Origin: Halorubrum sp. DM2
GTDB taxonomy: Archaea > Halobacteriota > Halobacteria > Halobacteriales > Haloferacaceae
DNA: 64,000 nucleotides
NCBI RefSeq assembly: GCF_901686465.1
Contig: NZ_LR594487.1
Coordinates: 592,894 to 656,893, forward strand
Reading direction: 5' to 3'
Shown: positions 35,536 through 45,973 of the stretch, piece by piece
Position numbering within the stretch: position 1 is the stretch's first letter
Layout of the letters: the number at the start of each line of letters is the position of its first letter
Translations under genes and position numbers: made by a program
The notes under the pieces: model-generated
What the model was told of the DNA's origin: nothing
What the model saw: only the letters and a program-made list of their open reading frames with translations
Databases searched by the model: none

Positions 35536-36159
35536 TTACTCCTCGGCGGCTTCGGATTTTGCCGTACAGCCGCAGCCACCTCGGCGAATGAGTTCTCCAA
35601 TCGGCACGTCCGCGCCGCAGTGCGGGCAGACGGCGCGCACGTCGACGAGTACGTCGTACCCGTCGGTGTCCAGTTCGTCCGCGCTCGCGAGCGAAGAGAT
35701 AGCGGACTCAGCGACCGCTGACAGGCGACCCACCAGTTTCTCGATGGTCTCGACCTTCCGCTCCACCATGCCGTCGCCCGCCGCGGGGAGGCTCGCCTCC
35801 CGCTCCTTGGTGAGGTACGTGTGGATCGCCTGGTGGGTAACGAAATCCCCGGTCAGCTCGTCGACATCAATCCCTTCACGTTCGAGGTGACGGCGGGTCC
35901 GGGTCTTCGACGATCCGGATTCTCCTCGGAGAGCGTCGTACGCGCTCGAAACGTTCACGCTAACCGATGAGACGTTCGCCTCGCGAAGAGCCGCCTCCAG
36001 CACCGCTTCATTGAACTCGTCGGCGAGATCCCGCAGGCTCGTTCGCTCGCCCGACTCACCCGTCCACGCCGTCTCCAAGTTCGCGCCCATCCCGTCGAGG
36101 TCGTATTTCCGGATCACTCGGGCGACCTTCGTGTTCGTATCGCTTGCTTCAGCGGTCAT
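35536..36159 (-). CDS. rdfA: Rod-determining factor RdfA-like protein
   Basis: A 207-residue cytoplasmic protein like the haloarchaeal rod-determining factor, which in Haloferax favours rod over plate cell shape. Matching segments are TKVARVIRKYDLDGMG near the start, WTGESGERTSLRDLADEFNEAVLEAAL, the region before TRTRRHLEREGIDVDELTGDFVTHQAIHTYLTK, and a C-terminal zinc-ribbon-like tail with CPHCG and CGC. ATG at 36159 was chosen; 68 further in-frame codons upstream look non-coding and lie in the AT-rich promoter zone. No disk-determining partner is in the window. The symbol rests on similarity I recall, not a search. Confidence 0.78.
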   Translation of the reverse strand: MTAEASDTNTKVARVIRKYDLDGMGANLETAWTGESGERTSLRDLADEFNEAVLEAALREANVSSVSVNVSSAYDALRGESGSSKTRTRRHLEREGIDVDELTGDFVTHQAIHTYLTKEREASLPAAGDGMVERKVETIEKLVGRLSAVAESAISSLASADELDTDGYDVLVDVRAVCPHCGADVPIGELIRRGGCGCTAKSEAAEE

Positions 36160-36398
36160 ACCGACAGTTCGACCGCAGTGGTGACAAAAACACCGGTGTG
36201 CCAGCCCGTCGTCGTCCGGAGTACGCCGGCACCGAAACTCCGGAGAATAACTCGTCGACTCCGTCCACAGTTCTAATCGAGGACACTCCAAGATCCACCC
36301 GAAATATATTTCAAACTTCTTTGACTTTAGTAGAATAATATGATATCTTATGTTTGTAGCCACAGAGTCTCGTTGACAGCAAAAATACGAGAAATACT

Positions 36399-37970
36399 CT
36401 ACGCGCCAACACCGTCTTCCGGGGCCGTGAAGTTCAAGATCCCCGTGTAGAACTCCTCGACCGTCAGATGGTCGTTCTCGACTTGCCGTTCGACGTTCCG
36501 GTAGAACCCGTCTCGCTCGTTGGCGACCTCGTCGCTCACGTTGAACTCGTTCTCATCGTAAAAATCCGACGTAGCGCCCATGCTCCGCATGACCGTGTAG
36601 AAATCCGGCAGCAGGAAGATATCGAGTTCAGAGAGGTCGCCGCCGTCTTCGTGATCGACGGTCCAGTCGTACCCGTATCGGTCGAACTCGTCGGTGATCC
36701 TGTCTGTGCGAGAGTTGACGCCCGTCGACCGTACTTCCCGCCAGAACGGCGTCTCGCCTGACGCGTATCTATAGTGGACACCGACGAAGTCGTGGATGGA
36801 CTCCCAAGCGCGGCGGACCGACTCGTTGAACGCCGTTCGGATCGCGTCGTCGACGACTCGGCCGTGCGAGGACAGCAGGTTCGCGAACCGCACCGCGAGC
36901 GAGGCGTTGGCGGTGAGCGCGGTCGACTGTAACGGTTCGACGAACCCCTGGGCGTTCCCGATGGCCAGACAGTTCCGGACCCACGCCCGGTCGTGGTAGC
37001 CGGACTCGAAGTCGTATCGATCGACCTCCGTCTCGGCGTCGGTGAGGGCGTCTCCGGCATCGCCCGGGGCGACCTCCGCGACGAACTCGCGGAACTCCGT
37101 CATCGCCGTCTCCTCGTCGGTGTACTCGGTGCTGAACACGTACCCCAGATCGCGGTTGTCGTACGTGTCGATCTGCCAGAACCACCCGTGATCGCCCGTC
37201 TCGACGACGGTTGCCGGGATGACATCGGACAGCGACCGGTCAATCCGGACGTTAAGCGCCGCGTCCAACGGGAAATCGAAATCACGGAATTCGACATCCT
37301 GCTCGCTCCGGAGGATTCGGTTGAATCCGGTCGCATCCACGTAGAGGTCCGCCTCGTAGCGCCGCTGACTGCCCTGTATTGCGTTGATTCGCGAACCGTC
37401 CGTCTCGACGGCGGTGATTTCGTCGTCGACGAGTGAGACGCCACGCTCCCGGCAGTGCTTCCGCAAGAATCCGTTGAACCGCTTGGTGTTGAGGTGATAG
37501 GCGACATCGTCGTACTTGTCGAGGTCACCGTCCGACCCGTAGTACCACGGCGACTTGCCCTGCGCGAGAATCTGTTCGCCTCGCGTGCGGTGGTCGGGGC
37601 TGTCGCAGAGTTCGTCGTAGTGGTGATAGAAGTGCTCGACGGCGTTCGGCGTGTTCGCGTCCGGGTATTTGGTCGGCGCGTCGAACGGGAACTGGAATGA
37701 CGGGCGGTCACACCAGTCCCGGAAGTACACCGATGCTTTCCATATCGGCTTCACCTCCGCGATGAACTCGTGTTCGTCGAGCTGGAGCGCGCCGTGGAGG
37801 ATGCCCTGGATTTCGCGGTACGTGCTCTTCCCCACCTGCGGAACCGCCTGTTGGAAGTCGTCGACGACGGAGACGTCCACATCCGGGTTCATCTGCCGGA
37901 CGCTCAGTGCCGTCAGCAACCCGACGTCGCCGCCCCCCACGATAGTCACTTCGTCTACCGTCTTGTTCAT
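36399..37970 (-). CDS. Flavin-dependent halogenase family protein
   Basis: A 523-residue protein of the tryptophan-halogenase group, which uses FADH2, O2 and halide to halogenate aromatic substrates. The FAD motif GGGDVG is at residues 12-17, with VGKSTYREIQGILH following; Lys78 in IWKAS aligns with the catalytic Lys79 of PrnA, and GWFWQID (262-268) is the signature WxWxI. The substrate-side motif reads VEPLQSTAL where tryptophan halogenases have EPLEST, so the equivalent of Glu346 is Gln348. No flavin reductase is nearby. It diverges from pckA across 220 bp that include a 20-bp tandem repeat. ATG at 37970; product unknown. Confidence 0.85.
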   Translation of the reverse strand: MNKTVDEVTIVGGGDVGLLTALSVRQMNPDVDVSVVDDFQQAVPQVGKSTYREIQGILHGALQLDEHEFIAEVKPIWKASVYFRDWCDRPSFQFPFDAPTKYPDANTPNAVEHFYHHYDELCDSPDHRTRGEQILAQGKSPWYYGSDGDLDKYDDVAYHLNTKRFNGFLRKHCRERGVSLVDDEITAVETDGSRINAIQGSQRRYEADLYVDATGFNRILRSEQDVEFRDFDFPLDAALNVRIDRSLSDVIPATVVETGDHGWFWQIDTYDNRDLGYVFSTEYTDEETAMTEFREFVAEVAPGDAGDALTDAETEVDRYDFESGYHDRAWVRNCLAIGNAQGFVEPLQSTALTANASLAVRFANLLSSHGRVVDDAIRTAFNESVRRAWESIHDFVGVHYRYASGETPFWREVRSTGVNSRTDRITDEFDRYGYDWTVDHEDGGDLSELDIFLLPDFYTVMRSMGATSDFYDENEFNVSDEVANERDGFYRNVERQVENDHLTVEEFYTGILNFTAPEDGVGA

Positions 37971-38065
37971 CGGTACCACACAACTCGTACTTGCTGATAA
38001 TAGGTTCAACGGTTCTGTGTGGATCAATCCTGTAGGAAATAACTGATGCCGTCCGGTTGCCGGAC

Positions 38066-38125
38066 AGCTGAACACGGAGTCGGAGAGCTGAACACGGAGT
38101 CGGAGAGATGAACACGGACTCGGAG
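38066..38125. repeat. Three tandem 20-bp repeats between halogenase and pckA
   Basis: Units AGCTGAACACGGAGTCGGAG at 38066 and 38086 are identical; the third at 38106 has two changes (AGATG..., ...GGACT...). Directly before them is GTCCGG-ttg-CCGGAC (38051-38065), a perfect 6-bp inverted repeat. Spacing near two helical turns and the position between two divergent promoters suit a cooperative regulator site. Confidence 0.8.
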
Positions 38126-38190
38126 TACTATTTTGGAGCAAATATGCTTGGATACCAACCTTATTACCCTCGCTCTGACAGCCCTGTACC

Positions 38191-39705
38191 ATGGCAGACG
38201 TTCGTGACAGCCCGACAGTCACTGACTATCCCGACCCGGAGACGGCCGACCACATCACGTACAACCCGTCGCTGGCGACGCTGCGAGGCTACTCCTCGCA
38301 TCTTGAGACGACGACGGACTACGGCGCGCCCGCGTACGTCAGCGAGTACCGCTCTCGGAGCGCGGAGCGGACGAAGAACGCCGTCGACGACGGCTTCGAC
38401 GCCGACGACTTCCGCGTCTTCGAGCAGGCTCTCGACTGGGTTCGAGACCCCCACAACGACGTCGTCTGTGTCGACCGCGTGGTCGGTCGTCACGGGGACG
38501 CCGCTCACGTCTGCCGGCTGTTCGTTCCCGAGGAGTACGGCCGCATCGCGCTCGCGTGGGCGAAGCTCCTCGAACCGGCCGAGGAAGCCGACCCCGACTT
38601 CGTCACCGTACAGCTACCGGACGCGACGCCGGAACCGACGATCCGTATTCTCCCGGAAGCCGGCGTCACGACGGTCCTCGGGAGCGACTACACCGGCGAG
38701 GCGAAGAAGTCGTTCCTGCGGTTGTTCATGCTGCGCGCGAAACAGCGTGGCGGGCTCGGACTCCACGCCGGCAGCAAGCGCGTCACCCTCGACGACGCGG
38801 ACGGCCGCCGCGAGGTCGGCCAGCTGTTCCTCGGACTCTCCGGGACGGGGAAGTCGACGCTCACGAGCCACGGCCTCTGGCTCGACGATCCGGAGGGCGT
38901 CGAGATGATCCAAGACGACGTCTGCGCGCTCCTCCCGTCGGGGACGGTCGCGGGCAGCGAGGGCGGCGGCCTCTACATCAAGACGCTCGGCTTAGCGGCC
39001 GACGAGCAGCCCGAACTCCACGACGCGGCCACCGACGAGAGCGCGGCCCTCGAAAACGTCGCCGTCGACGATGACGGGAGCGTCCACTTCGACGAACCCC
39101 GACACGGCCGAAATGCGCGCGCCGTAATTCGCCGCGACCGGCTCGCGAGCGCCTCCGAGGACGTCGACCTCCCCACCGTCGATCAGGTGTTTTTCATCAC
39201 GCGTAACCCCCTGATGCCGCCGGTCGCGAAGCTCACCGACGCGCAGGCGGCGGTCGCGTTCATGCTCGGGGAGTCGGTCGAGACGAGCGCGGGCGACCCC
39301 TCGCGGGTCGGCGAGTCGATCCGCGTGGTCGGCACGAACCCCTTCATCGTCGGGCCGGAAGGCGAGGAGGGCAATCGATTCCGCGATCTCATCGCGACCC
39401 TCGATGTCCAGTGTTACGTCATCAACACGGGCGTGGTCGGAACCGACGACCCGGTCGATGTCGGCGTCGAGGAGACGGTCGCGATTCTGGAAGGGATCGC
39501 ACGCGGGACCGTCAAGTGGACCCGTGACGACGACCTCGACCTCACGGTCCCGGCGTCGGTTCCCGGCGTCGACGTCGACCGGTTCGCGGTCGCGGACCGC
39601 GTCGACGGGTTCGCGGACGCACAGGCGGCGCTGCGCGCCGATCGCCGCGAGTACCTCGCGCGGTTCGGGACGCTCGACGAGGAGATCGTGGACGCGACGT
39701 ACTGA
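38191..39705 (+). CDS. pckA: Phosphoenolpyruvate carboxykinase (ATP)-type
   Basis: A 504-residue ATP-type PEP carboxykinase, converting oxaloacetate plus ATP to PEP in gluconeogenesis. Conserved parts are YTGEAKKSF (residues 167-175, family form Y-x-G-E-x-K-K), the kinase-1 loop GLSGTGKST (215-223), kinase-2 QDDVCAL (241-247), and FITRNPLMPPVAKLT. It is shorter than bacterial PckA and diverged, but all nucleotide and metal residues I can name are present. ATG at 38191 has CTTATTACC about 28 nt upstream. Fits growth on organic acids or C5 sugars feeding the TCA cycle. Confidence 0.88.
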   Translation: MADVRDSPTVTDYPDPETADHITYNPSLATLRGYSSHLETTTDYGAPAYVSEYRSRSAERTKNAVDDGFDADDFRVFEQALDWVRDPHNDVVCVDRVVGRHGDAAHVCRLFVPEEYGRIALAWAKLLEPAEEADPDFVTVQLPDATPEPTIRILPEAGVTTVLGSDYTGEAKKSFLRLFMLRAKQRGGLGLHAGSKRVTLDDADGRREVGQLFLGLSGTGKSTLTSHGLWLDDPEGVEMIQDDVCALLPSGTVAGSEGGGLYIKTLGLAADEQPELHDAATDESAALENVAVDDDGSVHFDEPRHGRNARAVIRRDRLASASEDVDLPTVDQVFFITRNPLMPPVAKLTDAQAAVAFMLGESVETSAGDPSRVGESIRVVGTNPFIVGPEGEEGNRFRDLIATLDVQCYVINTGVVGTDDPVDVGVEETVAILEGIARGTVKWTRDDDLDLTVPASVPGVDVDRFAVADRVDGFADAQAALRADRREYLARFGTLDEEIVDATY

Positions 39706-39744
39706 GCGTCAGACGACGGCTTCTCGGAGGTATTGACCGTCGGA

Positions 39745-39846
39745 TCAGTCAGCGCCGTGGTTCGGCGTGTATCCACACGCCTGACAGACCAGCGAGCCGT
39801 GTTCTCGGGTCACGCTACCGCCACACTGTGGACACGTCGACCGCAT
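39745..39846 (-). CDS. Zinc-ribbon microprotein, 33 residues
   Basis: ATG at 39846 opens MRSTCPQCGGSVTREHGSLV then CQACGYTPNHGAD and stops at 39745. The paired CPxCG and CxxCGY knuckles with a 12-residue spacing form a complete rubredoxin-like zinc ribbon, the plan of the many small zinc-finger proteins of haloarchaea. A TATA-like GATAAAGAG lies about 40 nt upstream. Role unknown; relatives affect stress and biofilm phenotypes in Haloferax. Confidence 0.75.
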   Translation of the reverse strand: MRSTCPQCGGSVTREHGSLVCQACGYTPNHGAD

Positions 39847-39921
39847 ACACTCCCCTGTGTTCGACGGACACATAACTCTTTATCGCTGATCGTCGACACG
39901 AGTCCACTCCGGACAGAGCAG

Positions 39922-41364
39922 TCAGTCGTCGACCGCGGCGTCCGGTCGATACCCGCGACTGATCGCCTTCCACGCCCCGGAGCGGAACCGGTAGTAGTTG
40001 ATGACCGCGCCCGGGACGCTCTCCGCGAGGAAGGAGAGATACACTCCCAACAGTCCCAGCGTCGTCGTCGCGCCGAGGTAGACGAGCGGGATGGCGAACC
40101 CGAACATGCCGACGGCGCGAGCGTAGAACGGCCAGTTGGTGTCGCCGGTCGCGTCGAGCGCGCCCGCGACTGCGTTCGTGACTCCCTGCGGAACGATGGC
40201 GACGCAGGCGGTGTACACGAGCGGAACGGCGACGGGCACGGCGGACGACGCCGGGTCGTCGACGAACACGAGGACGATGGGTCGCGCGAACACCGCGACC
40301 GTGGCCGCCGCGACGAGGTACGTGGCGACGGTGAAGGCGGTGATCTCGCGGCCGTACCGCTCGGCGGCCTCCTCGTCGCCCGTCCCCAAGGCCTGCCCGA
40401 CGAGGCTGGACGCCGCGAGTCCGAACCCCCAGCCGGGCGCGTTCATCAGCCCCCAGACCCGGCGGCTGATGACGTACGCGGCGACGACGTGCGAGCCGAA
40501 CGCGGCCAACAGCGCGAGAAGGGGAAACCGCGCGACCGTCCACACGGAGCTCCGGCCAACCACGGGGATACCGATGGAGAGCAGATCTCGAAGCATCTCC
40601 CGTCGGAGGTAGCCCCCGAACCAGTCGACGCGGACGGGGAACGCGCCGACCAGCGGGAGCCGACCGGCGGCGAAGCCGACCGCGAACGCGACCGTGACGA
40701 GGACGCCCGCGACGACCGTTCCCAGCGCCGCGCCGACGACGCCCATGTCGAGCGCGAAGATGAAGACCGCGTTGAGGGCGACGTTGACGGCCGCGCCGCC
40801 GGAGCGGACGACCATGGGCGTCCACGCGTCGTCGGCACCGACGAGCGCGCGAGACCCGATCTGGTTGAGGACGGCGAACGGCACGCCGACCGCGAGTACG
40901 CGGAGGTAGTCGGCCCCGTACGCGACCGCCGCCGGGTCGTCCGACAGCACCCCGACGAGCGACCGGGGGGTCAGCCAGAACAGCGCCGCGACCGGGAGCG
41001 CGATCGCCGTCGCGAGGACGACGCTCGACCGGACGACCTGACCGAGCTCGTCGCGGTCGTCGGCACCGAAGTGCTGGGAGACCAAGGCGATGGTGCCCGC
41101 CGCCATCCCGCCGCCGACGGCGAACGACACCCCCCAGAACGGGCCGGCGAACCCCATCCCGGCGATGGCCGTCTGCCCGAGCGCGACGCCGACCATCGCG
41201 GTGTCCGCGACGCTTTTGGACATCCGCGCGAGGCCGGTGACGATGCGCGGCAACGCGAGGTCCGTCGTCTCCTCTGCTCGCTCGCGGCCGACGAGTCCGA
41301 GCCGGGCGAGCAGCGCGCCGATGCCCAGCAGAAGCAGTCGGAGCGGGTTCGGAAGCCGGACCAC
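39922..41364 (-). CDS. MATE-family multidrug/efflux transporter
   Basis: A 480-residue protein with 12 hydrophobic segments in two similar halves: VADTAMVGVALGQTAIAGMGFAGPFWGVSFAVGGGMAAGTIALVSQHFGA in the first and SLVGQALGTGDEEAAERYGR in the second, the usual MATE signatures. MATE pumps expel cationic or aromatic compounds with Na+ or H+. I used GTG at 41364 because a TATA-like TTATTTAAC is centred about 29 nt before it; GTG at 41379 lies only about 14 nt from the box. Shares a 93-bp divergent region with the GH10 gene. Confidence 0.88.
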   Translation of the reverse strand: MVRLPNPLRLLLLGIGALLARLGLVGRERAEETTDLALPRIVTGLARMSKSVADTAMVGVALGQTAIAGMGFAGPFWGVSFAVGGGMAAGTIALVSQHFGADDRDELGQVVRSSVVLATAIALPVAALFWLTPRSLVGVLSDDPAAVAYGADYLRVLAVGVPFAVLNQIGSRALVGADDAWTPMVVRSGGAAVNVALNAVFIFALDMGVVGAALGTVVAGVLVTVAFAVGFAAGRLPLVGAFPVRVDWFGGYLRREMLRDLLSIGIPVVGRSSVWTVARFPLLALLAAFGSHVVAAYVISRRVWGLMNAPGWGFGLAASSLVGQALGTGDEEAAERYGREITAFTVATYLVAAATVAVFARPIVLVFVDDPASSAVPVAVPLVYTACVAIVPQGVTNAVAGALDATGDTNWPFYARAVGMFGFAIPLVYLGATTTLGLLGVYLSFLAESVPGAVINYYRFRSGAWKAISRGYRPDAAVDD

Positions 41365-41457
41365 CGTACGCGACGCCACTCACAGCCGTTAAATAAGTGT
41401 TGTCGACGCAGCTCCGGAGTCCCCCGGTTTCAAGACGAATCCCCGCAAAGACCAGCT

Positions 41458-42396
41458 ATGCGAACGCTTCGCGACGCCGCAGCGGACGCGGACGTCCACA
41501 TCGGTGCCGCCGTCGACGTCGAATCGCTCCGGACGAACACCGACTACCGGGAGACCGTCGCCCGCGAGTTCGACGCGGTCACCGCGGAGAACGCGATGAA
41601 GTGGGGGCCGCTGGCGGACGGCGAGTCCGGCTACGACTTCGCGGCCGCCGACGACATCGTCGACTTCGCGGCCCGCCACGACATGTACGTCCGCGGCCAC
41701 ACGCTGGTCTGGCACCGAATGTACCCCGAGTGGGTCCGGCCGTGGGCGCGCTCGGACACGGAGATGCGACGGCTGCTCAGCGACCACATCCACACGGTTG
41801 CCGGCCGGTACCGGGGTCGGGTGGACGCGTGGGACGTGGTCAACGAGGCGGTCGACGACGACGGCGGGCTCCGGGAGAACGCGTGGCTGAACGCGCTCGG
41901 ACCGGAGTACATCGACCGCGCGTTCGAACACGCGGCCGCGGTCTCGGACGCCGACCTCTTCTACAACGACTACGGAGCCGACGGGCTGTCCGCGAAGGCC
42001 GACGAGGTGTACGACCTCGTGTCAGACCTCGTCGCCCGCGAGGTCCCCGTCGACGGCGTCGGCCTCCAGTTACACGTCTTCGACGACGTGGTGCCGCCCG
42101 CGGACGTGGCCGCGAACGTCGAGCGTCTCACCGACCTCGGGCTGGACGTCCACATCACCGAACTCGACGTCGGCATCGGGGAGGCGGTCGCGGACCGCGA
42201 CGAGCAGGCCGAGTACTACTACGACGTCGTCTCGGCCGCCGTCGACGCCGGCGTCGACACGGTCGTCACGTGGGGCGTCGACGACGGGCAGTCGTGGCTC
42301 CCGGCTCGGGGATTCGGTGACGCGCCGCTCCTGTTCGACGAGGAGTTCCGGCGCAAGCCCGCGCACGGGGCCGTCCTCGACGCGCTCGGGGAATAG
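41458..42396 (+). CDS. GH10 endo-1,4-beta-xylanase, cytoplasmic
   Basis: A 312-residue glycoside hydrolase family 10 enzyme with no signal peptide, so it should act on imported xylo-oligosaccharides. The barrel landmarks are all present: VTAENAMKWGPL, VRGHTLVWH, the acid/base Glu130 in WDVVNEA, VGLQLHV, and the nucleophile Glu235 in HITELDV, plus TWGVDDGQSWLP near the end. The enzyme is short and consists of the catalytic domain only. First gene of the xylan island; TATA-like GTTAAATAAG is about 65 nt upstream. Compare the exported GH10-like protein at 50081, which lacks the acid/base. Confidence 0.93.
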   Translation: MRTLRDAAADADVHIGAAVDVESLRTNTDYRETVAREFDAVTAENAMKWGPLADGESGYDFAAADDIVDFAARHDMYVRGHTLVWHRMYPEWVRPWARSDTEMRRLLSDHIHTVAGRYRGRVDAWDVVNEAVDDDGGLRENAWLNALGPEYIDRAFEHAAAVSDADLFYNDYGADGLSAKADEVYDLVSDLVAREVPVDGVGLQLHVFDDVVPPADVAANVERLTDLGLDVHITELDVGIGEAVADRDEQAEYYYDVVSAAVDAGVDTVVTWGVDDGQSWLPARGFGDAPLLFDEEFRRKPAHGAVLDALGE

Positions 42397-42452
42397 CGAG
42401 GCGCTCGACGAACAGCGAGGCACTCGACGAACAGCGACGCCGGCCGCCGACG

Positions 42453-43394
42453 CTACGCGAACTCTGGGCCGTCGACGTCCTCGTCGGCCGCCTCCCGCCA
42501 GGTGTGTTCGGGCGTCCACCCGAGGTCGCGTTCGGCCTTCGCGGTGGTGAACGCCGACTCGTCGCCGTCGGTGTCGCACGGCGGAGCCTCGTCGAACAGC
42601 GCGTCGAAGAGGGCGGCGGTGTCGACGCCGAGGTAGTTCTCCGCCGCGTGACAGAGGTACGCCTCGTGGCCGTCGACTTCCGCGTCCACCGCCGCCGTGA
42701 CCATCGACGTGAGATCGCGGACGTCGACGTACGACCAGAAGTTCCCGATACCGCCGTCCGGCGGGTCGTCCGTCGAGCGAGCGGCCAGCGCGTCGACGTC
42801 GAAGGCCTCACGGTTCTGTTCGGTCAGGTACTCGCCGGGGTACTGTACCCACGACGGCCGGATCGAGGCGATCGAGACGTCGTGTTTCCGCGCCATCGAT
42901 CGGGCGACTGCTTCGCCGGCCTCCTTCGAGACGCCGTAGGCGTCTTCCGGCCGGAGCGGGTGCGCCTCGTCGACGGGGACGTACTCGGGTTTCAGCACCT
43001 CGTCGGCGAACGGGAACCCGTAGGCGGACTCGGAGCTCGCCCACACGACGTCCGCACCGGCGTGACCGGCGGCGTCGAGGACGTTGTACGCGCTCTCCGT
43101 GTTGTTCGTGAACACGCGTGACTCGGCGTGACCGGTCGGGTCCGGAATCGCCGCGAGGTGGACGACGGCGTCGGGGTCGGCGCTCGCGACGAGCTCCAGC
43201 GTCTCGCCCTGATCGGTCAGGTCGACCTCGAAGAACGACGCACCCTCGGGACCGCCTTCGGCGGGGAGTCGCCGGTCGAGGCCGACGACATCGCGGCCGT
43301 CCGCGACGAGTCTGTCGACCGTCCACTGTCCGACCCCACCGAGCGCGCCCGTGACGACGACATCGGCTGATGCTGAACTCACGCTCGGAGTCAC
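42453..43394 (-). CDS. NAD-dependent epimerase/dehydratase-type sugar dehydrogenase
   Basis: A 313-residue extended-SDR protein. The nucleotide motif is VVVTGALGGVGQWTVDRL near residue 12, followed by VDLTD and VVHLAAIPDP, and the catalytic YGVSK (Tyr-x-x-x-Lys) with an upstream WASSESAYG. Sequence style is close to uronate or sugar dehydrogenases of the epimerase family, so within this island it may oxidise glucuronate or xylose rather than epimerise a nucleotide sugar; this is inference. The GTG at 43394 was chosen over a 19-codon Arg/Thr-rich extension. It shares a divergent operator region with the IclR gene. Confidence 0.8.
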   Translation of the reverse strand: MTPSVSSASADVVVTGALGGVGQWTVDRLVADGRDVVGLDRRLPAEGGPEGASFFEVDLTDQGETLELVASADPDAVVHLAAIPDPTGHAESRVFTNNTESAYNVLDAAGHAGADVVWASSESAYGFPFADEVLKPEYVPVDEAHPLRPEDAYGVSKEAGEAVARSMARKHDVSIASIRPSWVQYPGEYLTEQNREAFDVDALAARSTDDPPDGGIGNFWSYVDVRDLTSMVTAAVDAEVDGHEAYLCHAAENYLGVDTAALFDALFDEAPPCDTDGDESAFTTAKAERDLGWTPEHTWREAADEDVDGPEFA

Positions 43395-43476
43395 GACGGG
43401 GAATCTAATGAAACACGGGGTCCGGGTGCGATCCGTGCGTTCAGCACGCATCGACCGCCGCGAGTGATCTCATTTT

Positions 43477-43495
43477 TGTTCTGTTATCCAGAACA
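43477..43495. promoter_or_regulatory. IclR operator 1, at iclR promoter
   Basis: TGTTCTGTTATCCAGAACA, 6-bp perfect arms around a 7-bp centre, 32 bp before the IclR start codon. Its right edge runs straight into the TATA-like CATTTATC (43494-43501), so a bound repressor would block TBP/TFB. Autoregulation, and control of the divergent dehydrogenase, is likely. Confidence 0.7.
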
Positions 43496-43527
43496 TTTAT
43501 CACTGCTATATGTCGTAATTGATCGGT

Positions 43528-44283
43528 ATGGACGCAAAACATCCGGTTCGAACCACCGAAAAGACCCTCGCGCTGGTCGAGGAGCTGATGGACCGCGAGC
43601 CGTGCGGAGTGACGGAGCTGGCGGACGGGCTGGAGATGGGGAAAAGCGCCGTTCACAACCACCTCACGACGCTACGAAAGCACGGATACGTGCTGAAATC
43701 CGGCGACGAGTACCAGCTCGGGCTGAAGTTCCTCGAAGTCGGGGGGTCTACCCGGAAGTCGATGGAGTTCTATCAGGTGGCCGAGCCGGAGGTGAAGTCG
43801 CTCGCGGACGAGACCGGCGAGCTCGCGAACCTCCTCGTCGAGGAACAGGGGATGGGCGTCTATCTGATGCGATCGAAGGGGGAGGACGCCGTCGACCTCG
43901 ACACATACGCCGGGCTTCGGACCCATCTCCACACCACCGCACTCGGGAAGGCGATCCTCGCGTACCTGCCCGAGTCTCGCGTCGAGGAGATCATCGAGCA
44001 GCACGGAATTGAACAGAAGACCTCCCGGAGCGTCGGCTCCCGCGAGGAGCTGTTCGACGCGCTGGAGGGCGTCCGCGACCGCGGATACGCCATCGACGAC
44101 GGGGAGCGGCTCGAAGGGCTGCGCTGTATCGCGGCCCCGGTCAAGGACTCCTCGGACGAGGTCCTCGGCGCGATCAGCGTGTCCGCGCCCGCCAGCCGCG
44201 TCAGCGACGACGACCTCCACGGCCGGCTCCCCGAACGCGTGCTCAGCGCGGCCAACGTCGTCGAACTGAACATCAACTACTGA
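43528..44283 (+). CDS. IclR-family transcriptional regulator
   Basis: A 251-residue regulator. Residues about 5-65 are the winged HTH ([48 protein letters not shown]) and residues about 80-251 the IclR effector domain, with [16 protein letters not shown] and [27 protein letters not shown] as landmarks. It lies in the middle of the glucuronoxylan genes and probably senses a breakdown product such as KDG, glucuronate or a xylose derivative. Three copies of one palindrome flank it. ATG at 43528, about 30 nt from the TATA-like box. Confidence 0.9.
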
Positions 44284-44288
44284 TACCC

Positions 44289-44305
44289 GTTCTATTATAC
44301 AGAAC
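44289..44305. promoter_or_regulatory. IclR operator 2, just after iclR
   Basis: GTTCTATTATACAGAAC, same arms as operator 1, five bases after the IclR stop codon. No gene starts beside it; it may act with operator 3 in looping, or be a relic. Confidence 0.55.
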
Positions 44306-44357
44306 AGTTGTTCGACGCGTTTCGATTCCGGTTGGTGGGGGAGCTGTCCGCGATAAT

Positions 44358-44372
44358 CGCCGAAATTCGGCG
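44358..44372. terminator. Hairpin after iclR
   Basis: CGCCGAA-a-TTCGGCG, perfect 7-bp arms, about 75 bp after the IclR stop and followed by an AT-rich stretch. Probable transcription end or RNA-stabilising hairpin; evidence is structure and position only. Confidence 0.35.
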
Positions 44373-44448
44373 GGGTATCTCGTTCATTTCTGGCTTACTA
44401 TTACTATTGTACGACTGTAATGGTTACCGGCGAGACATCCAGATAAAT

Positions 44449-44465
44449 GTTCTGTATATCAGAAT
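44449..44465. promoter_or_regulatory. IclR operator 3 with orphan promoter
   Basis: GTTCTGTATATCAGAAT. Read on the minus strand, operator plus flank (TTCTG-ATATA-CAGAACATTTATC) matches the operator 1 plus TATA module at 21 of 23 positions. It would fire leftward from about 44420 into the IclR 3' region, where only a 30-codon frame (ATG at 44387) follows. The surrounding 322-bp gap 44284-44605 has no convincing gene. Confidence 0.55.
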
Positions 44466-44605
44466 ATATCAGATAACTCGACGAACGAGGCCACTCCCTC
44501 GCCCGCGCTCCAACCGAGCGCCTGCCCGGCGTCGTCCGCGTCTCGATCCACCGCGAAAGCCGCGGTACATCGCCCTGTGTCTACGGGATCCTCGCCGGTG
44601 CCGCC

Positions 44606-45973
44606 TCAGAGCCCGTACAGCTCTTTCGGGCGATCGTAGGCGACGTGCTCGACGAGACGCTCGGCGTTGTCGTAGGGGAGCCGGCCGCGGTCGACCATCC
44701 TGCCGACGGCGTTCGCGAGCGACCGGCGGAACATCTCGAAGCGGGAGCCGTAGGAGACGAGCTTCCGGGAGTCGCTGACCATGCCGGCGTGGTTCGCGAG
44801 GAGGTCGACGGACGCCACCCGTTCCAGCTGGGTTTCGATCCCCATCGGGCTGTCGTTGAACCACCACGCCGGCCCGACGCTCACGTTCGGGTACGCGCGG
44901 GAGACGACCGCGAGGCTCGGGTAGTGCGTCGGGTCGAGCGTGTAGACGACGATCTCCATCTCGCCGTCGAAGCGGTCGAGGAAGTAGTCCAGCCCGTCCA
45001 CGAGGTCGACGTCTTGCGTCGACACGTCCCCGCCCGCGTTCTTCCCGAGGTCGTCGTAGAGCGACTCCCGGTAATCGCGGACCGCGCCGACGTGAAGCTG
45101 GGTCGTCCAGCCCGCCTCGCTGTTCAGTTCGCCGACGAACTCCAGCAGGAACGCCTTGTAGTCGCGGACCTCCGCCTCCGAGAGGCTCGCACCGCGGCGC
45201 GCCTTCGCGTACACGTCGCCGGCGCGCTCGACGCTGACGGGCCGCGAGACCGGCGTCGTCCCGGTCCCGATGTCGCAGGCCACACAGCCGTGATCGACGA
45301 AGTAGTCGTGGGTCTCCGCGAGCGCGTCCAGAAAGCCCTCGAAGTCGTCCACGGCCGGCTCCGTGACTGCGTCGAGTTCGTCGACGAACGACTCCCACGC
45401 CGGAGTCTCGACTTTCAGCGCGCGGTCCGGCCGCCACGTCGGCCGGACCTCGACGCCCCGAACCTCGGTCTCGGCGCGTTCGTGGTACTCCAGCCGCGAG
45501 GTCGGGTCGTCGCTGCTACACAGCACCTCGACGTTCATCTCACGGAGGACCGATTGGGGCCGCATGGCGTCGGTCGCGAGCTGGCGTTTCGTCTCCGTCC
45601 AGATCTCGTCGGCGGTGTCGGCGTTCAACGGTTGCTCGATACCGAACCGGCGCTTTAAGTCGAGCTGGACCCAGTCGTACGTCGGGTTCCCCGCGAAGTC
45701 AGGAAACACCTCGGCCAGCGCGTCCCACTTCTCCCGGTTGCCGGCGGCTCCCGTAATCTTCTCCTCGGGAACGCCCCGCTTGCGCATCAGCTGCCAGACG
45801 TAGTGATCCGTTGCGCCCTCGACCTCCCAGATGTCGTTCCACGGCTCGTCGTCGACGACCTCCCGGAGGTCGATGTGGTTGTGCGGGTCGACGACGGGCA
45901 GGTCCGCGATAGCGTCGTAGAGGTCGACGGCGGTCTCGGAGTCGAGCAGGTACTCCTCGTCGATGAATCCCAT
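44606..45973 (-). CDS. uxaC: Glucuronate isomerase
   Basis: A 455-residue enzyme converting D-glucuronate to D-fructuronate (and galacturonate to tagaturonate), first step after GH67 releases glucuronic or methylglucuronic acid. Family marks are VVDPHNHIDLREV near residue 28 (metal-binding His pair), the late WFNDSPMGIETQLERVASVDLLANHAGMVSDSRKLVSYGSRFEMFRR and the closing AYDRPKELYGL. Length is close to bacterial UxaC. ATG at 45973 with CAATAAAAC centred 28 nt upstream indicates a leaderless promoter. Same strand as the deacetylase-uxuA-SDR operon behind it. Confidence 0.94.
   Translation of the reverse strand: MGFIDEEYLLDSETAVDLYDAIADLPVVDPHNHIDLREVVDDEPWNDIWEVEGATDHYVWQLMRKRGVPEEKITGAAGNREKWDALAEVFPDFAGNPTYDWVQLDLKRRFGIEQPLNADTADEIWTETKRQLATDAMRPQSVLREMNVEVLCSSDDPTSRLEYHERAETEVRGVEVRPTWRPDRALKVETPAWESFVDELDAVTEPAVDDFEGFLDALAETHDYFVDHGCVACDIGTGTTPVSRPVSVERAGDVYAKARRGASLSEAEVRDYKAFLLEFVGELNSEAGWTTQLHVGAVRDYRESLYDDLGKNAGGDVSTQDVDLVDGLDYFLDRFDGEMEIVVYTLDPTHYPSLAVVSRAYPNVSVGPAWWFNDSPMGIETQLERVASVDLLANHAGMVSDSRKLVSYGSRFEMFRRSLANAVGRMVDRGRLPYDNAERLVEHVAYDRPKELYGL

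Follow-up and report, generated by a model that had tools for sequence, protein, structure and literature searches.

Can a flavin-dependent halogenase do without the glutamates that are important in its tested relatives? This question is raised by a gene of Halorubrum sp. DM2 located in a stretch of 64,000 bp (contig NZ_LR594487.1 of assembly GCF_901686465.1, positions 592,894 to 656,893), hereafter called the window. The original prediction had proposed a lone flavin-dependent halogenase with a Glu-to-Gln replacement at a key site, which may halogenate a different substrate or be a non-halogenating monooxygenase. Both readings are still candidates after the present analysis; what had been missed is the occurrence of Gln throughout a haloarchaeal clade, the additional loss of Glu49 (PrnA numbering), and the probable acquisition of the gene.

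Coding sequence and active-site motifs

The span 36399-37970 harbors exactly one CDS, which lies on the minus strand (the strand had been left unstated) and encodes the protein P0001; frame 1 of the plus strand is interrupted by stop codons. The start codon was placed 11 codons ahead of the GGGD motif, and the nearest ATG is found likewise in most orthologues. P0001 matched the Pfam family Trp_halogenase (PF04820) with an E-value of 9.4e-71 over residues 8-469. The score of 239.4 bits as compared to a gathering cut-off of 21 and the coverage of profile positions 2-447 of 458 represent a full-length match and confirm the assignment as a homologue of flavin-dependent halogenases.

A PrnA-type halogenase from Azotobacter salinestris (L085), whose gene adjoins one of prnB type, served as ruler for PrnA numbering. 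Upon alignment, Lys78 of P0001 corresponded to Lys79, Trp263 and Trp265 to Trp272 and Trp274, Gln348 to Glu346, and Thr350 to Thr348. The FAD motif, GWFWQI (residues 262-267), and Lys78 are located as originally described, as is EPLQST with Gln348; since Gln348 aligns with Glu346, a location away from this position can be dismissed. The features are summarized in Table 1.

Table 1. Features of the halogenase-like gene and its adjacent genes (window coordinates).
Feature	Position	Strand	Remarks
RdfA-family gene (neighbor)	35536..36363	-	Pfam RdfA 7.9e-67; domain from aa 78, true start probably internal
Halogenase-like flavoenzyme CDS, 523 aa (P0001)	36399..37970	-	ATG at 37970, TAG ends at 36399
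FVEPLQSTAL, residues 343-352	36915..36944	-	Gln348 (PrnA Glu346), Thr350/Ala351 (PrnA Thr348/Gly349)
GWFWQID, residues 262-268	37167..37187	-	WxWxI retained; Asp268 instead of Pro of WxWxIP
Catalytic Lys78 (PrnA Lys79)	37737..37739	-	assigned by alignment
Flavin-loop end QVGKST, residues 45-50	37821..37838	-	Lys48 in place of FAD-sensor Glu49 of PrnA/Thal
FAD dinucleotide motif GGGDVG, residues 12-17	37920..37937	-	fits GxGxxG
PEP carboxykinase (PEPCK) gene (neighbor)	38191..39705	+	divergent, 220 bp off

Asp15 of the FAD motif occupies a place at which the ten bacterial and phage comparators have Thr or Ser. The family motif FX[DE]PX[EFL] was matched by the PrnA-type control and not by P0001. 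The pattern Fx.Px.Sx.G reads FVEPLQSTA, with Ala for Gly; at this place, Gly, Ala, and Ser occur in 8, 21, and 3 of 32 haloarchaeal rows, respectively, and Gly in just six of the ten comparators.

Motifs for tryptophan binding were taken from PMC8269204, according to which ATIP or ATFS after the flavin loop (Trp1) is part of the tryptophan gate. P0001 reads STYR at this place and did not match Trp1, relaxed forms included; neither of the Trp4 motifs of that paper was found in P0001, even when relaxed. The PrnA-type control matched Trp1 and the relaxed Trp4. Because of STYR, the missing Trp4, and the positive control, the database name of the relatives, "tryptophan 7-halogenase", is unsupported, and P0001 is probably not an enzyme acting on free tryptophan.

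The GC content of the gene is 62.2% as compared to 67.8% for the window. This composition proves nothing on the origin of the gene because the neighboring RdfA-family gene has an even lower GC content of 60.3%.

Role of the replaced and retained residues in tested relatives

In PrnA, exchange of Glu346 by Gln lowered the activity by about two orders of magnitude (~100-fold), as the original prediction had correctly stated, and a QM/MM model has the indole NH held by Glu346 (PMC5727139). A MalA variant with Gln at the corresponding position was inactive; the family motif admits Phe and Leu at this place (PMC8407142). In AbeH, BorH, Thal, and Xcc4156, the glutamate at the place of Glu49 is located at the end of the flavin loop or next to it and flips upon FAD binding; it was described as an FAD sensor and as a switch closing the substrate gate (PMC11840605, PMC7336383). 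In QhpG, Glu42 is located over the isoalloxazine, and replacing it led to a loss of activity and/or of affinity for the substrate (PMC7876137); by our own reading, Glu42 corresponds to PrnA Glu49.

When Lys79 is exchanged, Thal remains able to form the C4a-hydroperoxyflavin and does not halogenate; furthermore, hypohalous acid (HOX) leaks from Thal and is released similarly by Lys79 variants (PMC7948982). The WxWxIP motif was proposed to prevent hydroxylation: hydroxylases bind their substrate near the flavin, which WxWxIP would block (PMC10696468).

Both glutamates are lost in a haloarchaeal clade

We searched 392 genomes of the order of the window (Halobacteriales, judged from named relatives). 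Clade members were found at 29 places at E < 1e-90; a larger tally of 38 also counts short and weak matches. The 25 genomes concerned, one of them that of the window, belong to 8 families and 16 genera. Apart from the latter genome, only 24 of 391 members of the order carry the gene, a patchy distribution. Orthologues with Gln, which the original prediction had suggested looking for, were obtained throughout: Gln occupies the position of PrnA Glu346 in 36 of 36 halogenase ORFs from the fetched haloarchaeal loci (33 distinct ones after dropping three duplicate records). Gln348 is therefore not a sequencing slip. Even the copy of Halomontanus rarus, with an identity of 36.6%, carries Gln. Across the sequences compared, Gln348 is a trait of the clade; all ten comparators carry Glu.

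The second replacement concerns Glu49. At this place, 28 of 32 haloarchaeal rows have Lys and three have Gln, and the one row with Ala is a 5'-truncated copy cut by IS66; Glu is present in ten of ten comparators. The flavin loop thus reads GKST or GQGT instead of GEAT or GEST. Three copies outside the 32-row count carry Lys (the second copy of locus L055 and that of L056) or Gln (L057). By the thresholds set in this analysis, near-fixed differences between the 32 haloarchaeal rows (two near copies and one truncated fragment among them) and the ten comparators are confined to six columns in the whole protein, namely D37, D38, K48, Q348, G405, and Y508; two of these are the two conserved active-site glutamates.

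Other residues are retained. Lys78 is present in all haloarchaeal rows (32/32) and all comparators (10/10), and Trp263, Trp265, and Thr350 each in 32/32 haloarchaeal rows. The proline of WxWxIP is replaced by Asp in 32/32 rows; the comparators have Pro (seven) or Gly (three). GWFWxxD occurs in 35 of 36 ORFs, the exception being GWCWTID in the second L055 copy. Altogether, 67 residues are invariant across 32 sequences, including Lys78 and both WxW tryptophans. For six orthologue pairs, dN amounted to 0.12-0.28 and dS to 0.45-0.79, with dN well below dS in each pair, which shows that purifying selection acts on the gene.

A phylogeny of 41 proteins set the 31 haloarchaeal rows apart from the 10 rows of bacteria and phages (support 100/100), and the separating branch measures 2.45 changes per column. 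According to a program warning, several of the branches leading to bacterial and phage sequences are long. No classical Glu-type halogenase was found in haloarchaea by a PF04820 search (E 1e-30) of 392 genomes of the phylum, which yielded four proteins, all of this clade.

On a plasmid of Natribaculum luteum (L075:4223-7377), a clade member is annotated as two halogenase pieces, which are separated by an IS66 transposase gene. Of the three divergent copies in genome G013 (L055, L056), two are located within about 8 kb of each other; the surroundings of L055, a contig with two copies, contain sugar and peptide transport genes and glycosidases, and no biosynthetic gene was seen among 10 ORFs of L055 and L056 picked by size. 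The plasmid-borne copy of Halomontanus rarus (L073) is surrounded by sulfatase and GH97 genes, as in a polysaccharide-utilization locus.

Viral halogenases

A viral origin of the gene was rejected: a search of viral contigs for related loci gave no relative, and phage matches showed at most 28.9% identity among the best 10 of 60. An EPLQST-type pattern was matched by four viral stretches, and two of these belong to halogenases as judged by HMM, which keep Glu49: IMG/VR contigs L099 (3382-3407) and L100 (5422-5447) encode a natural EPLQST together with the usual GEST. The idea that Gln is strictly confined to haloarchaea was therefore rejected. A third viral ORF (L177), the alignment of which is doubtful, reads EPSQ at the place of Glu346. 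The Glu49 place is occupied by a residue in 99 of 111 matched viral ORFs, in all 99 by Glu, and shows a gap in the other 12; the viral set comprised 84 loci, 80 of them from at least 80 pattern matches, in which Glu346 is fixed by construction of the pattern. Because the two viral Gln346 halogenases keep Glu49, it is the paired loss of Glu49 and Glu346 that is peculiar to the haloarchaeal clade, as far as the sequences compared here are concerned (ten from bacteria and phages, those in five PDB alignments, and the viral loci).

Predicted structure

The solved relatives best matching in sequence were MibH (5uao, E 6.1e-46), Tar14, VirX1, a Shewanella halogenase, and AbeH, all five with Glu at both places. 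Eight haloarchaeal sequences were used for a structure model (mean pLDDT 71, pTM 0.77), which is of low confidence in two segments of the active-site region (residues 209-231 and 322-346). MibH (5uao) again ranked first in Foldseek (E 5.9e-27). In VIA-align, the first 48 entries were halogenases of this type with Z 25.9-30.8 (several entries per enzyme), led by 2wes, the PyrH variant E46Q (Z 30.8, 465 residues, rmsd 3.3); CndH and Bmp2 followed at Z about 20. The predicted fold of P0001 thus matches those of solved tryptophan halogenases over almost the whole length.

Genomic context, electron supply and probable acquisition of the gene

Nine neighboring proteins were scanned: RdfA-family, YccF-type, CinA-type, PEPCK, MATE transporter, SDR, IclR regulator, glucuronate isomerase, and one unmatched. 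The claim that no reductase, carrier protein, or biosynthetic cluster lies alongside holds for these nine, and Trp-derived natural-product genes were likewise absent from them. HpaC-type flavin reductases (PF01613) gave no match in the genome (13 of 14 control genomes were positive), and one protein matched PF03358 (FMN_red). A dedicated reductase partner is not evident.

An all-against-all comparison of ORFs of at least 50 residues within about 9 kb revealed no recurring neighbor gene across 32 distinct loci, and a conserved operon or cluster was rejected. The commonest neighbor family, apart from the gene itself and shadow frames, was of PAS/histidine-kinase type (9 of 32 loci). Families named from 10 representatives chosen by hand further included DUF7260, parts of oligopeptide ABC transporters, GFO/IDH, GH3, NUDIX, glycosyltransferase, nitrite/sulfite reductase, and chaperonin, all at scattered positions. 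RdfA was not found in the families recurring at three or more halogenase loci, among the 60 largest groups listed; it was rejected as a functional partner because RdfA and PEPCK are adjacent in five congeners, with no halogenase gene in between. A further RdfA-family match in the Halorubrum sp. DM2 genome (G000:C1:1125625-1126192) consists of two pieces with internal stops and appears broken.

The gene was absent from 169 of 169 other genomes of the family at E 1e-50. PEPCK was found (E 1e-100) in 6 of 29 congeneric genomes, including the window's own; in the five others (L088-L092) the matches for RdfA and PEPCK are neighbors at a distance of 0.1-0.4 kb, which leaves no room for the gene and thus represents an apparent empty site relative to window 35536-39705. 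The nearest relative in the tree comes from genome G080 of another family (f12). Its locus has PEPCK (1.1 kb off), MATE, SDR, IclR, and UxaC genes on the same side with 79-92% protein identity. PEPCK is also divergent on that side at three f12 loci, at a distance of 1.1 kb (two loci) or 3.6 kb (one locus), and among 11 halogenase loci compared, the PEPCK-side block is common to these three and the window only. The window region 38191-45973, apparently a sugar-acid locus, shares its block of PEPCK, MATE, SDR, IclR, and glucuronate isomerase genes with an f12 genome (L042, 79-92%).

In view of its absence from the 169 other family genomes and of the apparent empty site in five congeners, the gene was probably acquired horizontally in the Halorubrum sp. 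DM2 genome. Transfer between families at the common locus is the simplest account; ancestral presence followed by many losses is a possible alternative.

Proposed function

P0001 either halogenates in a different way or has been converted from a halogenase to an enzyme of other chemistry. Our preferred reading, with a probability of roughly one half, is a two-component flavin-dependent halogenase of a variant specific to haloarchaea. It would still make HOX and use Lys78, and its substrate would be an activated compound different from free tryptophan. The salt-in cytoplasm is rich in halide. FADH2 from a general cellular reductase would react with O2 to give C4a-hydroperoxyflavin, and chloride or bromide would be oxidized to HOX. 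Through a tunnel shielded by WxW, HOX would travel to Lys78, which would hand it to an electron-rich substrate. Such a substrate, which may resemble a phenol, pyrrole, or enol or be displayed on a larger molecule, may be activated enough to need no carboxylate for stabilizing and deprotonating the intermediate. Neutral Gln348 may serve as a hydrogen-bonding partner, and Lys48 may alter the sensing of flavin binding and its coupling to the substrate gate.

The retained Lys78 and WxW tryptophans favor a halogenase with another substrate over a plain monooxygenase, without settling the matter, because the Lys79 variant of Thal fails to halogenate and WxWxIP was proposed to act against hydroxylation. 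The family motif furthermore allows halogenases without Glu (PMC8407142), Gln itself lying outside of it. Against this reading count the cost of Gln in PrnA and MalA, the missing FAD-sensor glutamate, Asp for Pro in WxWxIP, the lack of a PF01613 reductase in the genome, and the lack of a biosynthetic partner among the neighbors scanned. Somewhat more tentatively, P0001 may represent a distinct haloarchaeal enzyme class on the halogenase fold, in which the double replacement would break the coupling between flavin chemistry and substrate gate and abolish classical Glu-assisted halogenation; what is left would be either halogenation by Lys alone at molar halide or hydroxylation of a haloarchaeal molecule.

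The loss of two glutamates with an important role in tested relatives is real evidence against ordinary halogenation and for a monooxygenase. Such an enzyme would be non-halogenating and QhpG-like, with HOX chemistry replaced by direct hydroxylation, possibly of tryptophan or another residue in a protein or peptide. We consider this rather unlikely. In its favor, the two glutamates present in 10/10 comparators are lost together, and Gln at the second of them costs most or all of the activity in tested enzymes (PMC5727139, PMC8407142); it also agrees with the invariant Asp in WxWxIP, the weak QhpG match (55.1 bits) indicating kinship to a peptidyl-Trp hydroxylase, and MibH, a lanthipeptide Trp halogenase, as the closest solved sequence. 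However, the QhpG score falls far short of its cut-off, neither the WxW shield nor the lysine handling HOX varies within the clade, no target gene (of at least 50 residues) recurs alongside, and the proximity of substrate and flavin needed by hydroxylases would be blocked by WxWxIP as proposed (PMC10696468).

That P0001 is an ordinary tryptophan halogenase tolerating Gln348 and Lys48, as its PF04820 match and the annotation of its relatives imply, is improbable given its STYR and missing Trp4 (motifs of PMC8269204), the role of Glu346 in holding the indole NH in the PrnA model (PMC5727139), and the lack of Trp-derived natural-product genes among the neighbors scanned. Equally improbable is a halide oxidizer releasing free HOX for defense or antagonism, which would need no bound organic substrate and hence no base. 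HOX leakage from Thal, the missing recurring partner gene, and the generally known chloride richness of the cell agree with it; yet Lys79 variants of Thal release HOX similarly (PMC7948982), so that Lys78 would be dispensable, although it is invariant, and a cytoplasmic HOX source would be expected to harm its producer. A decayed or non-catalytic relict, suggested by the loss of both glutamates and the split copy of Natribaculum luteum, is very improbable in view of the low dN and the invariant residues including Lys78 and both WxW tryptophans.

The family as such is already known, its members being automatically annotated as halogenases. In the open-licence literature, we found no description of the double replacement or of the clade, and no paper on a flavin-dependent halogenase in haloarchaea. 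A natural and fixed replacement of Glu by Gln and Glu by Lys in high-chloride cells provides a natural experiment on the role of the conserved glutamates and on what separates a halogenase from a hydroxylase. Such enzymes are also a possible source of salt-tolerant biocatalysts, and mining by FX[DE]PX[EFL] would miss them.

Comparison with known enzymes

Among cyanophage halogenases, the S-B64 protein is 28.3% identical to P0001. For the cyanophage halogenases and VirX1, a native substrate is not known. VirX1 and two aligned phage enzymes keep both glutamates, unlike P0001. QhpG, the Trp dihydroxylase of CTQ maturation, shows family kinship with P0001 and carries Glu42 in the flavin loop (PMC7876137); the match to its equivalog (NCBIfam NF049967) is weak and remains below the curated cut-off of 240 bits. 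The lanthipeptide Trp-5-halogenase MibH, which is nearest by sequence and ranks first in Foldseek, has Glu at both places, whereas P0001 has neither and lacks a lanthipeptide-type gene among the neighbors scanned. From the two-component enzymes of PrnA/RebH/PyrH type (variant A, PF04820), P0001 differs by Lys for Glu49, Gln for Glu346, Asp for Pro in WxWxIP, the absence of the Trp1 and Trp4 substrate motifs, and the absence of a recurring neighbor; common to both are the full-length fold, the FAD motif, WxWxI, the catalytic lysine, and the threonine of the halide site.
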